Shown: in pieces, positions 16,826 to 56,112 of the stretch | How the letters are laid out: the number at the start of each line of letters is the position of its first letter | Numbering within the stretch: the stretch's first letter is position 1 | NCBI GenBank assembly: GCA_900321655.1 | Contig: ONWU01000003.1 | Coordinates: 113,367-177,366, forward strand | DNA from: an uncultured Bacteroidales bacterium | GTDB taxonomy: Bacteria > Bacteroidota > Bacteroidia > Bacteroidales > UBA932 | Direction: 5' to 3' | DNA length: 64,000 nt | Program-made: the position numbers and the translations under genes | Notes under the pieces: model-generated | Databases searched by the model: none | Seen by the model: the letters and a program-made list of their open reading frames with translations, nothing else | What the model was told of the DNA's origin: nothing

Positions 16826-16846
16826 AAAGACACCTTGAATTATTAT

Positions 16847-16899
16847 ACGGAGGAAAATTATTTTTTGTGCAGTAGCCCAAAAAACCAATTTTCCTCCGT
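16847..16899. repeat. Palindromic element, copy A (intergenic)
   Basis: A 53 bp imperfect palindrome between the convergent ends of the transglycosylase and HhH genes. The outer arms are ACGGAGGAAAATT and AATTTTCCTCCGT. An inner stem TTTTTTGTGC / GCCCAAAAAA surrounds the loop AGTA, with a fixed CC mismatch beside the inner stem. The central 47 bases (GAGGAAAATT through AATTTTCCTC) are identical to the complement of copy C inside citC at 54099. Here it probably also acts as a bidirectional terminator. Confidence 0.85.
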
Positions 16900-16907
16900 T
16901 GAATTTA

Positions 16908-50705: not shown

Positions 50706-52943
50706 TTATTTGCGGTTTTTGTAATAATTCATCAGGCAGCCATCGGCCAGGATCTGGCGTTCGTCTTCCGTGAGGTTCTGGAAGTACAGGACGATGGGCG
50801 TAGATTTGCCGTCGCGGGTGATGACGCGGGCATCGATCTGCTCGGCGCCGCCCAGGATGGCCTCCCGGATTCCGGGAACAAACACATAGTCCCCCACCTC
50901 ATAATCGAAAGGCGTTCCCTTGTCGATGGTGAAAGGAACGATGCCCCAGTTGATGCAGTTGCTGCGGTAACGCTTGGTGGCGTATTCGTAGCAGATGTTG
51001 GCATCACCACCCAGCACCTTCTGGCAGGAAGCGGCCTGCTCGCGGGCGCTGCCGTCTCCGGGCTTGTTGGCGAAGACGCAGGAGCCGAAGGAAGTGCTTT
51101 CGGCCGATGTTCCGGCCACGGCAAGGGCTTTGCGGAGGTCATCGGTGAGCTCTCCGGCACGGCGGGAGCGGTCATCGGCCTGGATGCGCTTGGAACGGCC
51201 CACATATTCGGGGACGCGGCGGCTGAGGGCGAACTCGGAGAGCTTTAGCGGGTTGGAACGATAGCTGGAGGTTTCTCCGGAAGGGATCAGCTCGTCCGTG
51301 GTGGTCACGGGGTCGTGGATCACGGCAGCCAGTTCCAGCAGCATATTCTCCTGCATGGCGGGCATCACGGGCCAGTCCTTGATATTGGGGCCATAGCGGA
51401 GCTCCTGGCTCAGGTCGGCCTTGCCGAAACCGTTGTAAATGCGTTTTTCGTAGATATGGCCGTCAAACTGGTAAGGCTTGTGGGTATCTTCGTATTCGAT
51501 GTCCGTTGCTGCGGTGATAACACCGCCGTTGGCAGCCGTGGCGGCGATGGAACGGGCATCCATCAGGGCCACCATCGAAATCTGTCCCTGGCCGGGCTTG
51601 GAGCCTTCGCGGTTGGGGAAATTACGGGTGGTGTGGCGGATGGAGAGGCCATTGTTGGATGGCACGTCACCGGCGCCGAAGCAAGGGCCGCAGAAGGCGG
51701 GTTTGATCACCACACCGGCTTCCAGAAGCTCTTCAGCGATGTGGTTACGCGTGGTAGCCAGATACACCGGCGTGCTCTGGGGATAGGCGCTCATCGTAAA
51801 GTAATCGTTGCCGATGGATTTGCCTTTGAGGATGGTAGCCGCCTCGGAAAGGTTGTCGTAAGTACCGCCGGAGCAGCCGGCGATGATGCCCTGATCGGCA
51901 TAAACCTTTCCGCTGCGGATCTTGCTCATCAGGTCGGGATGTACCTTGTCGCCAAAGCGCTTGACGGTGTCTTCCTCGATGGCCTTGAGCACCTTTTCGG
52001 GGTTCTCCTGCAGCTCGTGGATGGTGACGGCGTTGGACGGATGGTAAGGCAGGGCAATCATGCTCTCCTGCTGACTCAGGTCGATGGTGATCATCGCATC
52101 GTAGTACGCCACCTGGCCGGGCTCCAGTTTCTTGTAAGCCTCCGGCCTATTGTGCATTTCAAAGTATTTCTTCACCTCATCGTCCGTAATCCAGATGGAA
52201 GAGAGGCAGGTGGTCTCGGTAGTCATCACATCAATTCCGTTGCGGAAGTCGATGGGGAGTTCCTTGACGCCGGGGCCGGCAAACTCCAGCACCTTGTTCT
52301 TCACGAAGCCACTCTCGAACACGGCCTTCACCAGGGAAATGGCTACATCGTGAGGGCCGATACCGCGCTTGGGCTTCCCTTCCAGCCATACCAGCACCAC
52401 CTCGGGGGCTTTGATGTCCCAGGTGTTCTCCAGCAGCTGCTTCACCAGCTCTCCGCCGCCTTCACCAACACCCATATTGCCCAGGGAGCCGTAACGGGTA
52501 TGGGAGTCCGAGCCCAGGATCATGTTGCCGCAGGCGGTGAGGGCCTCGCGGGCATACTGGTGGATAACCGCCTGGTTGGCAGGCACGTAGATGCCGCCAT
52601 ACTTCTTGGCAGCACTGAGGCCGAACACGTGGTCGTCCTCATTGATGGTACCACCCACGGCGCACAGGGAATTGTGGCAGTTGGTCATGGCATAAGGCAG
52701 CGGGAACTTCTCCAGTCCGCTGGCACGGGCCGTCTGAATGATGCCCACATAGGTGATGTCATGCGAAACCATGGCGTCAAAGCGGATCCTCAGGTCCTTT
52801 CCCTTGGAGCCGTCTACGTCGTGCTTGCGCAGAATCTGGTAAGTAATGGTGTTTTCGCGGGCCTCGTCCTTTCCGAGAGCCGCGTCCTTGGCGATGGTCT
52901 TTCCATCGAGGAGATAAACTCCATTCGGGTTTAGTGTAATCAT
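50706..52943 (-). CDS. acnA: Aconitate hydratase
   Basis: A 745-residue [4Fe-4S] aconitase of the Bacteroidota type, close to the mitochondrial group. Recognisable parts are HDITYVGIIQTARASGLEKF, the loop GSDSHTRYGSLGNMGVGEGGGELVKQLL near 160-185, the first cluster cysteine region IIAGCSGGTYDNLSEAA, the other two cysteines in KPAFCGPCFGAGDVPSN, and the C-terminal swivel domain with GSCVFANKPGDGSAREQAASCQ. It converts citrate to isocitrate. The ATG at 52943 overlaps the citC-citG stop by 4 bp and is preferred to the longer frame from 53030. Confidence 0.93.
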   Translation of the reverse strand: MITLNPNGVYLLDGKTIAKDAALGKDEARENTITYQILRKHDVDGSKGKDLRIRFDAMVSHDITYVGIIQTARASGLEKFPLPYAMTNCHNSLCAVGGTINEDDHVFGLSAAKKYGGIYVPANQAVIHQYAREALTACGNMILGSDSHTRYGSLGNMGVGEGGGELVKQLLENTWDIKAPEVVLVWLEGKPKRGIGPHDVAISLVKAVFESGFVKNKVLEFAGPGVKELPIDFRNGIDVMTTETTCLSSIWITDDEVKKYFEMHNRPEAYKKLEPGQVAYYDAMITIDLSQQESMIALPYHPSNAVTIHELQENPEKVLKAIEEDTVKRFGDKVHPDLMSKIRSGKVYADQGIIAGCSGGTYDNLSEAATILKGKSIGNDYFTMSAYPQSTPVYLATTRNHIAEELLEAGVVIKPAFCGPCFGAGDVPSNNGLSIRHTTRNFPNREGSKPGQGQISMVALMDARSIAATAANGGVITAATDIEYEDTHKPYQFDGHIYEKRIYNGFGKADLSQELRYGPNIKDWPVMPAMQENMLLELAAVIHDPVTTTDELIPSGETSSYRSNPLKLSEFALSRRVPEYVGRSKRIQADDRSRRAGELTDDLRKALAVAGTSAESTSFGSCVFANKPGDGSAREQAASCQKVLGGDANICYEYATKRYRSNCINWGIVPFTIDKGTPFDYEVGDYVFVPGIREAILGGAEQIDARVITRDGKSTPIVLYFQNLTEDERQILADGCLMNYYKNRK

Positions 52944-54745
52944 ATGATGATTGAGTGAATAAATATTGTCAAAGCCAGCATATCGGCCGCCCCGCCCGGG
53001 GAAATGCCCTCTGCCGCATACTGTTTGCACAGTTCCCTCCCGGCAGAAGAAAAATGGTTTTTTGCAAAGCCTTGCGAAAAATTATTTTCTTCTGCCTCTA
53101 ATATCGCTGAAGCTTCCTGTTTCACCTCCTGCGCCCTGTCATACCCCACTCTCTTGATCACGCAGGTATCGTCCAGGGTGCACATAATCCTGAGGAGCGT
53201 CTTCAACTCCCCTGCGCCGGAAGCATAATACGGAAGCCAGTCTTCAAACAGCAGCCGATAGCCCTCATCGGCCATCGCCTTCGCTCCCTTCACATCCTTC
53301 GCCCCGCTGGCGCTTTCACGTAACTCTCTGTCACTGAGCGACTTCCCGTACAAGCGGTGCACCTGCGCGTGCACCCCTCTACGTAGAACTTCCTGAATAT
53401 CAGCGGATTGAGCATTAGGGTAGAAAACGTTCAGGACCAGGCCGATGCAGAAGATAGCGCCGCGGTGGGTATTGACCCCGCCGGTGGCGGATAGCATAGC
53501 CGATTCGGCCTGAATCCCCAGCTTACGAAGCTCTTCCGGCGAGGAAGCGAGGGCCATCCGGGGCCAGAAGGGCCGAAGGGCGGCTATTCCCCGCTGCATA
53601 GTATTATAGTCCATATCCCGATGCGCACCGCAGGAGTCCGGCCCCACAAGGCCCGGTTTGCCGGGGGTGTCCAGTTCCAGCTGAAGCGCCCGGTTGGCCA
53701 GATCGGCCAGAAGATACGGCCAGGTACTTGAAGGACAAAGGGCCGATGCTTCCCGGAAACAGCCCCTCTCCAGAGCCGCACGAACGGCCGATGCCGATAC
53801 CTGCGTGCGCGGTATCTCCACCACCTGAGGCAGCAGTTCCTTCATAAAAGCGTTGTACTGAGCCGTAAGGGCATCCGTGGGCTCCGTGCCCACAAAACGG
53901 ACGGAAGCATTCAGGGCCGGTGCAATCCACCGGGTATACAGGTCAAGGTCCAGACGCATCTGCGTTTCCGCCGCATCAGACAAGTTTTTCAAGAAATAAG
54001 TAGGAAAAGTAGCGGCCGATATCTGGTACTCACTTCCCTCCAGAAGTATAAGGGTGGCAGAGGATAATTGGTTTTTGGGACAGTTGGGAACAGTTAGAGC
54101 AGAGGAAAATTGGTTTTTTGGGCTACTGCACAAAAAATAATTTTCCTCTGCCTTTCTAATCATGGAAACTCGTTCAGAATAGGAAAACCGCTGGCCTTCT
54201 TCCTTAACAGGAATCACATAGAGCGTATCTACTTGAGACGCAGCCTGCTGCAGAAGATACAGATGCCCCAGCGTGAACGGATTTGCGTTCATTACCACAA
54301 CGCCACTCCGGCCCTCCCGGCGGAAAGAACGGAGATAATCACAGTACTTTTCCAGCCCCCTTCCCTTTTCCATCAAAAGGGCCTTGGGAGCGCGGGCCAG
54401 CACATGGAAGCCCAGACTCTCAAACACCGCCTCATTCTCCGGCTTGGTGAACAGCTTGAGCTCCGACATGCCCCTGGACGCAGCCAGGGAGATGAGATGG
54501 GACACCAGCGGCGCCACCAGGCCTTCGGAACGGGCCTGCTGCGCAACGGCAATGCACTTGATTATATCCCTGTAAAGACCGGCGCCGGCTAAGATTTCTC
54601 CGGCATCGTTTTCTATGGCACAATACACATCAAGTACTTCCAGCCGGAGGCCATTTTCTCCGAGGAAGCGCTCCACCTTCTGGCGGAAAAACGGACTGCT
54701 CAGAGGCAGTTCCTGTATGTTGTGCTCTCTGTAGCTTTGCATCAT
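52940..54745 (-). CDS. citC-citG: Citrate lyase ligase fused to triphosphoribosyl-dephospho-CoA synthase (CitC-CitG) with two palindromic-element insertions
   Basis: A 601-residue fusion for citrate lyase activation. Residues 1 to about 340 are CitC, which acetylates the lyase prosthetic group: a GNAT-like start (AGAGLYRDIIKCIAV), VVMNANPFTLGHLYLLQ for the nucleotide, FSYSERVSMIRK and LLEGSEYQISAATFPTYFLKN. Residues about 345-601 are CitG, which makes the triphosphoribosyl-dephospho-CoA precursor: SCGAHRDMDYNTM, GGVNTHRGAIFCIGL, DDTCVIKRVGYDRAQEV and SPGGAADMLALTIFIH. In CitC, residues 199-216 (AEENYFLCSSPKNQFSSA) plus a decayed second piece enlarge a loop that is normally short. In CitG, residues 551-568 (AEENNFSQGFAKNHFSSA) do the same. 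Both are encoded by the palindromic element in the same reading phase. The fold cores around the insertions are intact. Confidence 0.9.
   Translation of the reverse strand: MMQSYREHNIQELPLSSPFFRQKVERFLGENGLRLEVLDVYCAIENDAGEILAGAGLYRDIIKCIAVAQQARSEGLVAPLVSHLISLAASRGMSELKLFTKPENEAVFESLGFHVLARAPKALLMEKGRGLEKYCDYLRSFRREGRSGVVVMNANPFTLGHLYLLQQAASQVDTLYVIPVKEEGQRFSYSERVSMIRKAEENYFLCSSPKNQFSSALTVPNCPKNQLSSATLILLEGSEYQISAATFPTYFLKNLSDAAETQMRLDLDLYTRWIAPALNASVRFVGTEPTDALTAQYNAFMKELLPQVVEIPRTQVSASAVRAALERGCFREASALCPSSTWPYLLADLANRALQLELDTPGKPGLVGPDSCGAHRDMDYNTMQRGIAALRPFWPRMALASSPEELRKLGIQAESAMLSATGGVNTHRGAIFCIGLVLNVFYPNAQSADIQEVLRRGVHAQVHRLYGKSLSDRELRESASGAKDVKGAKAMADEGYRLLFEDWLPYYASGAGELKTLLRIMCTLDDTCVIKRVGYDRAQEVKQEASAILEAEENNFSQGFAKNHFSSAGRELCKQYAAEGISPGGAADMLALTIFIHSIII
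53042..53096. repeat. Palindromic element, copy B (in frame inside citG part)
   Basis: A 55 bp imperfect palindrome with arms GGCAGAAGAAAA and TTTTCTTCTGCC. It is the most diverged full copy, with loop region GCAAAGCCTTGC, but keeps the AAAAAACC mismatch on one inner arm. It encodes about 18 extra residues just before the conserved SPGGAADML of CitG. Confidence 0.85.
54056..54090. repeat. Decayed partial palindromic element in citC
   Basis: GGCAGAGGATAATTGG then TTTTTGGGACAG resembles one arm and the inner stem of copy C, which starts 9 bp further on. The second arm is missing. It adds residues like SSATLI before the conserved LLEGSEYQIS, and suggests a partial duplication or an older insertion. 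Confidence 0.55.
54099..54151. repeat. Palindromic element, copy C (in frame inside citC)
   Basis: A 53 bp palindrome, arms GCAGAGGAAAATT and AATTTTCCTCTGC. Its complement is identical to copy A over 47 bases, although copy A lies 37 kb away between genes. Read with citC it gives AEENYFLCSSPKNQFSSA. Confidence 0.88.
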
Positions 54746-54811
54746 CCAACAGGCTTTCCAATACTCCCGGTTCCGCCTGTTAGGGAATCACTATGCGAAG
54801 ATAGCAATTAA

Positions 54812-55570
54812 CTATCGATTTCCCAAGGAATCTTCCACGATATTCGCCACCATCGTCCCCTTCTTGCCCAGGGGTACATACATCCCCAGGACAATACGGG
54901 CTCCCTCGGCCTCTCTCCAGAGTACCACCTCGTTGCCGCTGCCGTTTTCCATTATGCCCCGTTCCGTAAGCACCAGGCGCAGCCGCTGGGCCTGATGCCC
55001 AGGATAACGCTCCAGATCCGTTCCCTCCCAGGTGATGGTTCCCCGATAAGGTTTGCCGCCGATAAGGACTTTTACCTCGCAGGGCACTCCTTCCTGGAAA
55101 TCATAAGTTCTGGCGAAATACAGGAGGGACATCATCTCCATCGTCCTACCGTCGTTGGGATAGGTAAAACTCTCAGGGGCCGGCATCTTTTCAAAAAAGC
55201 GCCAGTAATGCACCCCTTCATCCCCATCCGTGTAGCGGCACCAGCCCTCTCCCTTGGAGGAGGGACAATAGTAATAGAGCGGCTTCATCCCGGGGCGCGT
55301 AAACTGGCCTTCCACGGCATACTCGTCTTTCAGGAAAAGGCGGAAGATGGATTTCACCCGTATACTGATATTCAGGGTATTGACCTCTTTTCCCTCCCAG
55401 ACGTCCGGTTTCATATCAAAAAAGGCCGATGCTGCCCGCGCGTTGATGGCACCATAAAGGTACCGCACCTCATATTCCGTATGCTCCACTCCGGGATTCT
55501 GCGGCGTGGGCGTTTCCTCCGGGGGAACCCCCAGAAGAAGCATCAGCGGTAATAACAAAAGACGAATCAT
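54812..55570 (-). CDS. DUF3108 periplasmic protein
   Basis: A 252-residue exported protein with a hydrophobic signal (IRLLLLPLMLLLGVP). The core YEVRYLYGAINARAASAFFDMK, IRVKSIFRLFLKDEYAVEGQFTRPGMKPLYYYC and SLLYFARTYDFQEGVPCEVKVLIGGKPYRGTITWEG fits DUF3108, a family near LptD-related and outer-membrane beta proteins. No cofactor or catalytic motif is visible. It overlaps citX by 4 bp although it has no evident link to citrate metabolism; the 66 bp gap to citC-citG holds the inverted repeat AACAGGC/GCCTGTT. Confidence 0.75.
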   Translation of the reverse strand: MIRLLLLPLMLLLGVPPEETPTPQNPGVEHTEYEVRYLYGAINARAASAFFDMKPDVWEGKEVNTLNISIRVKSIFRLFLKDEYAVEGQFTRPGMKPLYYYCPSSKGEGWCRYTDGDEGVHYWRFFEKMPAPESFTYPNDGRTMEMMSLLYFARTYDFQEGVPCEVKVLIGGKPYRGTITWEGTDLERYPGHQAQRLRLVLTERGIMENGSGNEVVLWREAEGARIVLGMYVPLGKKGTMVANIVEDSLGNR

Positions 55571-56112
55571 ACTTTAACCATTTCTTCAATCCGGGCTAGC
55601 AACTCTTCCGTTGTATGCGTCTTGGCCCTCATGCAATATCTTACTTCATTCCCGCACAAAAGGCATTTGCGGGGTTCCAGGCCGATGTCGGAACGCGACA
55701 GGGACAGGGCCGGAGAAAAATATTTTTCGTGCGGCAGCCCGAAAAACCATTTTTCTCCGGCCTGAGCATCAGCGAAAAGGACATCAATATCCATCAGGCG
55801 GCCCAGCGGGTGGGTGTCTTCAATGCGGCAGGCCAGGCGCTTGGCATCCGGGGCCGGAAGTGAGACCAGGAAATAACCTTCATAGCCCGTTTCCAAATCC
55901 CTCAGTTCTTCATATTCCGGCGAAAATGCCTCCCGGATGGCATCCACACCGGCCTTGGCAATAGCCAGCGAATATTTGTTCCGCTTTTCAGGCCCCGGCA
56001 ACTGCACCGTCATGCAAAGGAGGGACCTGCCGGGGTTCTTTCCCAGCAGGTCCTTCTGATGCTTTGCGCGGTTGTCCCGGCTTTGCAGCAATTGCTCCAG
56101 GGTCACCGGCAT
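55567..56112 (-). CDS. citX: Apo-citrate lyase phosphoribosyl-dephospho-CoA transferase with palindromic-element insertion
   Basis: A 181-residue CitX, which transfers the prosthetic group to the serine of CitD. Family landmarks: LLQSRDNRAKHQKDLL at the N-terminus, LPGPEKRNKYSLAIAKAGVDAI, the active-site strand HPLGRLMDIDV near 102-112, and the C-terminal RSDIGLEPRKCLLCGNEVRYCMRAKTHTTEELLARIEEM. Between LMDIDV and LSRSDIG, where relatives run straight on, residues 118-136 (AGEKWFFGLPHEKYFSPA) are encoded by copy D of the palindrome. Its stop overlaps DUF3108 and its start overlaps the citF stop by 1 bp. Confidence 0.92.
   Translation of the reverse strand: MPVTLEQLLQSRDNRAKHQKDLLGKNPGRSLLCMTVQLPGPEKRNKYSLAIAKAGVDAIREAFSPEYEELRDLETGYEGYFLVSLPAPDAKRLACRIEDTHPLGRLMDIDVLFADAQAGEKWFFGLPHEKYFSPALSLSRSDIGLEPRKCLLCGNEVRYCMRAKTHTTEELLARIEEMVKV
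55708..55762. repeat. Palindromic element, copy D (in frame inside citX)
   Basis: A 55 bp palindrome with arms GGCCGGAGAAAAAT and ATTTTTCTCCGGCC, inner stem TTTTTCGTGC / GCCCGAAAAA and the same CC mismatch. Relative to the gene it is inverted with respect to copies B and C, yet it keeps an open frame in the same phase. Confidence 0.88.

Follow-up and report, generated by a model that had tools for sequence, protein, structure and literature searches.

A short hairpin element carried in frame by conserved protein genes in one genus of gut Bacteroidales

We analysed a window of 64,000 nucleotides (contig ONWU01000003.1, positions 113,367 to 177,366) from the genome of an uncultured Bacteroidales bacterium, and studied an imperfect palindrome of 53-55 bases that occurs there both between genes and inside the citrate lyase genes citC-citG and citX. 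Conserved proteins that hold it gain about 18 residues, or in some cases about 33. Our results make it likely that the palindrome is a dispersed, non-autonomous hairpin element, restricted to one genus and tolerated in flexible loops. This agrees with the preliminary description of the window, which had proposed a mobile or dispersed, tolerated element: further copies exist, with nine strong ones in the source genome and many in related genomes, and the inserted peptides do not look ancestral.

Copies in the window and in the source genome

A covariance model (R1), built from the nine strong copies of the 2.11-Mb source genome, gives one additional match there at chance level. Because the element is symmetrical, R1 matches every copy on both strands; we give as strand that of the TTATTTTT...AAAAACCAA orientation, and as window coordinate the R1 contig position minus 113366.

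53042..53096, minus strand: palindromic element in the CitG part of citC-citG; peptide AEENNFSQGFAKNHFSSA; R1 E=9.3e-17; DNA fold z -4.5; loop shorter in most orthologues
54098..54152, minus strand: palindromic element in the CitC part of citC-citG; peptide AEENYFLCSSPKNQFSSA; R1 match; DNA fold z -7.8
about 54056..54080, minus strand: right half of a decayed copy; peptide ...NCPKNQLSSA; adjoins the 54098 copy downstream in the gene direction
55708..55762, plus strand: palindromic element in citX, which reads its other strand; peptide AGEKWFFGLPHEKYFSPA; R1 E=2.0e-20; DNA fold z -7.4; CitX alignment
16846..16900, plus strand: intergenic copy directly past the stop codon of a gene; R1 E=1.8e-18; DNA fold z -9.8
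52940..54745, minus strand: citC-citG fusion, 601 amino acids, citrate lyase ligase plus triphosphoribosyl-dephospho-CoA synthase; single open reading frame (ORF); Pfam PF08218 and PF01874 (Citrate_ly_lig, CitG) on orthologue L093
55567..56112, minus strand: citX, 181 amino acids, with the insert at residues 118-135; Pfam PF03802 on orthologue L099; structure model

R1, folding and sequence matches confirm the four copies and the half copy at the positions first described, and as single-stranded DNA all four full copies fold far below shuffled sequences (z -4.5 to -9.8). What had been called a decayed arm at 54056-54090 is indeed a degenerate copy, but its extent is that of a right half; the sequence match covers 54050-54079, where the last 7 query bases are the query's own flank. 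The reported identity of the 54099 and 16847 copies over 47 bases on opposite strands holds, 43 of these bases being contiguous (2 matches; 0 in 100 shuffles). The 43-bp core of the 54098 copy is also found, identical, in an rRNA-methylase-like gene elsewhere in the source genome, and the three copies that share it differ in their outer bases, which still pair.

Eight of the nine strong copies lie inside open frames of at least 188 codons, and one (16846) is intergenic. The copies in cit genes sit in two genes, and not in three as first thought, because citC and citG are one fused ORF. Their clustering in these genes is true of the window, which has three of its four full copies there, but genome-wide the cit genes hold 3/9 strong copies, and 19 protein families are affected. 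In the structure model of CitX (predicted local distance difference test, pLDDT, 86), the insert is a break between two strands and has the lowest confidence of the model (48, residues 121-130). This loop and the variation in loop lengths are the grounds on which the insert may be called surface-exposed. We make no structural claim for CitC-CitG because its model is poor (mean pLDDT 57).

Hairpin core and outer arms

The core hairpin, AATTATTTTTCG, about 10 nt and CGAAAAACCAATT, with A opposite CC, is conserved across copies. The constant CC mismatch noted earlier is actually an asymmetric internal loop. In an alignment of the nine copies of the source genome, a variable outer arm is followed by GAAAATT, the A facing CC, TTTTTYG and a loop region of 12 bases, after which comes the complement. 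These copies contain 25 double-changed cells, where shuffling gives 8.5 on average (0/500 shuffles), for a structure drawn from the same copies. Among the 102 copies outside a GC-rich class, the column pair 4/52 is Watson-Crick in 86%, against 26% when shuffled, with all four pair types (L083 and L084 are omitted here and from the analysis of loop likeness below).

Although the outer arms vary from one copy to the next, the two arms of a given copy mostly pair. In 63/141 copies they form an outer stem of at least 7 bp, compared with 8.9% for arms taken from mixed copies and 5.1% in shuffles. Full-length copies, of about 100 bp, have an additional inverted repeat on the outside, whose sequence varies by subfamily: GGCATCTGC pairs are spaced by 82 nt in 14/19 cases and GGCTTGCC pairs by 84-86 nt in 7/7. 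Since neither is ever spaced by less than 25 nt (0/19 and 0/7), both kinds of arm seem to move together with the element. Orthologous copies in the methylase gene carry the arms GACTCTGTGG/CCACAGAGTC (source genome), GATTCTGCGG/CCGCAGAATC and GAGTTTGTGG/CCACAAACTC, and in L312, L316 and L319 the arms pair over about four or five bases only, with the full-length right end kept. We read these differences as arm growth or repair by copying from the opposite side; the alternative is loss in the L312/L316/L319 group.

Placement in reading frames

Of the 36 palindromes in 60 cit loci, 35 are within the reading frame of CitC-CitG or CitX (the 36 places were collapsed from 77 model rows on both strands, excluding the weak L254 5334, L256 5267 and L257 3490). 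We call column-2 frame the one whose first codon starts at alignment column 2. It is used by 27 forward and 3 backward copies of the 35, the others being 2 backward copies in another frame and 3 with a shifted left part. Insertion in frame and in both orientations, as proposed for the window, therefore stands, and the single phase becomes a preferred one rather than an invariant one.

Among the 144 copies analysed, 112 lie inside an open frame of at least 200 codons, 70 of them forward in the column-2 frame, bearing in mind that spurious open frames can arise in GC-rich DNA. About half (79/144) are in frame in 19 protein families supported by Pfam, for which each cluster was scanned through a single representative (27 for column 2); the protein names are our interpretation of the matches. 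In the column-2 frame, 73 copies occupy 17 such families: CitC-CitG, CitX, HhH-GPD/NUDIX_4 (MutY-like), HAD, ATP synthase a and gamma, SpoU/MRM3-like methylase, nucleotidyltransferase, glycosyltransferase, DNA_alkylation, Ala_racemase_N (YggS-like), GDP_Man_Dehyd, FAD_syn/flavokinase (RibF-like), IGPS, UDP-glucose dehydrogenase, RmlD and the RNase P protein. The start codons of ATP synthase a are in doubt because the inserts are located close to the N-terminal end, where the Pfam domain does not reach. L088 and L125 have a Pfam match and are not counted as hosts, as the copy precedes the domain and perhaps the start codon. Citrate lyase genes make up 26/83 column-2 host frames, and are thus frequent but not exclusive hosts.

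Six copies use the reverse column-3 frame (2 in CitC-CitG, 2 in HAD, 1 in MFS and 1 in a beta-lactamase-fold protein). The longest frame is other than column 2 in 41 copies, of which 23 were scanned with Pfam, 2 are known CitC-CitG and 16 are unscanned. The GC-rich class has 41/144 copies; 19 were scanned, in one frame, and gave only one supported host (IGPS, L054). The forward and the reverse column-3 frames are as open as the used frame, yet seldom used, so that openness alone does not explain the phase bias.

Gain and loss at orthologous loops

At the same loops, some species have a copy and others do not. In 61 aligned CitC-CitG sequences the loops vary in length, up to 77 residues, and the palindrome is present in the CitC loop of 11/60 rows, the linker of 7/60 and the CitG loop of 9/60. 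On a FastTree gene tree, in which 18/57 inner branches are weakly supported, these loops require at least 7, 7 and 6 changes, respectively, and an N-terminal loop adds 1, giving at least 21 (the tree of loop states omits L251, and seven states were set by hand: six present, including two remnants, and one absent). Distant genera were checked by the DNA model only. The statement that Cit relatives have no sequence where the inserts lie is correct for most of them, which have a shorter loop (in CitX and in the 61 CitC-CitG), but not for all. In the close pair L147/L148 the second is short of 27 bases of the hairpin centre, and in the comparison of the CitG loop of L254 with that of L147 a close relative is short of the same number; the frame is kept.

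The loop of the rRNA methylase has 39-264 bases between fixed flanks, in multiples of three in 29/30 loci (30 of 34 loci from 26 genomes, four being incomplete and four repeating a genome); the sole other locus, L308, seems to be explained by an error of projection. In 7/26 genomes the loop contains the palindrome, and many others carry different repeats. Most of the orthologues checked, for CitC-CitG and for the methylase, are without the inserts.

Distribution across genomes

The covariance model has matches in 69 of 400 genomes sampled from the genus at E<=0.01, and in 63 at E<=1e-5; as scoring was limited to 14 candidates per genome, the counts for single genomes are floors. Genomes of the family, 149 of them drawn evenly over 25 genera, gave no strong match to the DNA model outside the source genome: four other genomes reach 24-26 bits, against 69-82 bits for the copies of the source genome. 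Three such weak matches (L021, L025, L026) are in G077, from another genus of the family, and may be a diverged relative or chance.

The exact pattern occurs in at least 115 stretches of named species genomes. Among the matches listed, almost all are Bacteroidales or Bacteroidia assemblies, many of them ruminant-named, and one each is labelled Clostridia and Crocinitomicaceae, which we take, without proof, to be mis-binning and chance. Viral contigs gave 0 exact matches to the pattern, and a tblastn search of plasmids and phages with a 27-residue peptide gave no match at E<=1. From these searches, the family appears to be confined to a single large genus of bacteria of the gut, mostly of the rumen, through which it has spread. 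Within this genus, loop sequences are alike in 87/458 pairs of copies from the same genome (19.0%), and in 510/9553 pairs from different genomes (5.3%; 0/2000 permutations), which fits local spread.

Other hairpins in the same loops

Two further repeat families, unrelated to the palindrome and each with its own hairpin, occupy the same CitC, CitG and methylase loops. One encodes SERSEES/FAQND peptides (DNA gtcattctgagcg...) and is CGTC-headed in 2/35 cases; the other encodes MPDxDRAS/IPDQVGND peptides (DNA catgcccgac...) and is CGTC-headed in 51/74. Both are in frame in CitC/CitG loops (L100, L070, L093, L113, L204, L220 and others). In the methylase loop, L302, L305, L306, L308 and L318 have an insert of at least about 110 bases with long inverted ends (GGAGGGTGTTGTGTCGCAAATC...GATTTGCGATACAATACCCTCC and variants), and L317 and L319 are enlarged by tandem short peptide repeats (CHTEDLNPS and AMPSEVSP units).

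Six full-length copies (L064, L027, L071, L086, L117, L127) lie inside the loop of a separate hairpin, GTCATTCGCCGG...CCGGCGAATC, of which nine are found without the element. Pairs of TTCGCCGG are solitary in 9 cases (5-7 nt loop), split by the element in 6, and spaced by 29 nt in 1 that overlaps a solitary one. Because they also occur as solitary hairpins, insertion into the loop of another repeat is suggested. It is conceivable, though we would not bet on it, that in this genus permissive loops repeatedly capture hairpin-forming DNA generally and in frame, its arms being written from the flanking gene by hairpin-templated copying. If so, host codons would join a mobile-looking palindrome, and DNA secondary structure, not a transposase target site, would set the entry points of the peptides.

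Movement and alternative explanations

In our proposal, the element reaches many places by insertion or copying. Where it breaks a gene it would be lost, and where it falls in frame in a flexible loop it would survive as a tolerated, predicted peptide. Outer arms and linkers would then erode, and the inner palindrome would be kept, probably by hairpin-templated copying from arm to arm, as the matched arm changes in orthologous copies suggest, or by selection on the hairpin. Our best guess for the mover, a tentative one, is a Y1 (RAYT/IS200-like) transposase acting on the bulged hairpin.

Several observations weigh against this account. The presence of a Y1 transposase (PF01797) is weakly associated with the element (46/69 genomes with it and 164/331 without; odds ratio 2.0, p=0.012), and at E<=1e-5 no Y1 gene is seen in some of the genomes rich in copies. 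Neither a target-site duplication nor an exact empty site is readable, relatives mostly differing by at least about 15% in DNA. Since the empty sites among those listed have about 70-97% flank identity and are in variable loops, no duplication rule can be read from them. For the 16846 site, the flank is readable in 10 relatives (it is cut in an eleventh), and none of the 10 has a copy up to 170 bases from the corresponding gene end; an exact comparison is prevented because the neighbouring gene differs there. No parent transposon was found for the element. The likeness of loops within genomes could reflect shared descent, tandem duplication or conversion, and pure tolerance would not lead one to expect the phase bias. 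Columns 2, 3, 5 and 6 of the GC-rich class are mostly unpaired in the common register. Finally, the named genomes among the matches listed are all metagenome assemblies or uncultured bacteria.

The alternative that fares best is a diverged family of repetitive extragenic palindromic (REP) sequences moved by a RAYT (Y1) transposase. The bulged hairpin and the weak Y1_Tnp enrichment fit it, and in-gene REPs are known elsewhere (available text of PMC3733652). But the CGTC/GTAG tag is missing: it is not enriched within 30 nt of 133 copies (69 near against 70.5 far, and 34 near against 36.5 far). With Y1 genes also undetected in several copy-rich genomes, we hold this origin to be possible but doubtful.

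A structured RNA, or a transcription or mRNA hairpin kept for regulation, would account for strong hairpins with compensatory change, and many GC-rich copies look intergenic. It is nonetheless unlikely, as position within genes and orientation vary, most checked orthologues have no copy, and Rfam 15 models at gathering score gave 0 matches in the window. A little less likely still is selection of the peptide itself, by which the tag AEENYF....KNQFSSA, the commonest encoded pattern of the copies, would have a protein-level role and DNA symmetry would be a by-product of spread. The dominance of one phase in the cit genes speaks for such a role, as do the 73 column-2 against 6 column-3 placements in Pfam-supported hosts when two other frames are equally open. 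Yet the hosts are functionally unrelated, the middle residues are variable, most orthologues do without the peptide, and unrelated peptides (SERSEES, FAQND, MPDxDRAS) occupy the same loops. That the inserts are ancestral loops, old protein parts lost in some lineages, is very improbable: close species do share some sites (the CitC loop in the window, L212, L203 and L201), but the changes counted over four loops of the CitC-CitG tree, the identical cores in unrelated genes of one genome, the intergenic copies and the finding of both orientations at one site all contradict it.

Comparison with known systems

Protein-coding palindromes have hitherto been mainly a curiosity of Rickettsia and Wolbachia; the available text of PMC2996958 reports them for these and for Methanocaldococcus, and our literature search, which did not extend to the list of in-gene cases in PMC3733652, found none for Bacteroidales. 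Here a gut genus of more than 400 sequenced species carries them as a large family. As a given loop has a copy in some species and none in others, it becomes possible to trace insertion, phase choice, decay and tolerance by statistics and to test them in ordinary enzymes. Inserts seen in the loops of proteins that come from metagenome assemblies should also be treated with caution, as they may be repeat-derived.

The dispersed element described here resembles the Rickettsia palindromic elements (RPEs), which, in the portions of PMC2229807 and PMC10969869 available to us, are intergenic or in frame in conserved genes, encode a conserved peptide and leave one tested host enzyme active. The name Rickettsia-type, given at first to the copies of the window, fits this behaviour, in particular the in-frame insertion in conserved genes, and does not imply membership, since we compare behaviour and not sequence. 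RPEs have 105-146 bp (PMC2229807, same portions); our element has a core of 53-55 bp and a full form of about 100 bp. It differs in its asymmetric A/CC bulge and copy-specific arms, and belongs to another phylum.

REPs headed by GTAG or CGTC are likewise short imperfect hairpins, and the accessible parts of PMC3733652 place some in ORFs of several bacteria, including repair genes; those of R. conorii correspond to RPE-4 and RPE-6. The same parts mention CGTC repeats as such for Bacteroidetes. Unlike these, our element has no tetranucleotide tag, and about half of its copies are in conserved genes, when REPs are described as mostly intergenic. CGTC-headed hairpins, a described class in that source, coexist with it in the same loops as separate families.

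Miniature inverted-repeat transposable elements (Correia/NEMIS, RUP, ERIC) share with our element a full form of about 100 bp and in-frame fusions, the latter known for ERIC and Correia (PMC2229807, as far as accessible), and perhaps inverted ends, given the outer stem of 63/141 copies. The outer inverted repeat here changes with the subfamily, no parent transposon was found, and no target-site duplication could be read among the diverged relatives compared. Finally, PARCEL repeats, as PMC2996958 describes them in its available text, also code for protein, have dyad symmetry and move between genes. By this description they are largely tandem domains of membrane or surface proteins, whereas the copies of our element are usually single and reside mostly in soluble enzymes.

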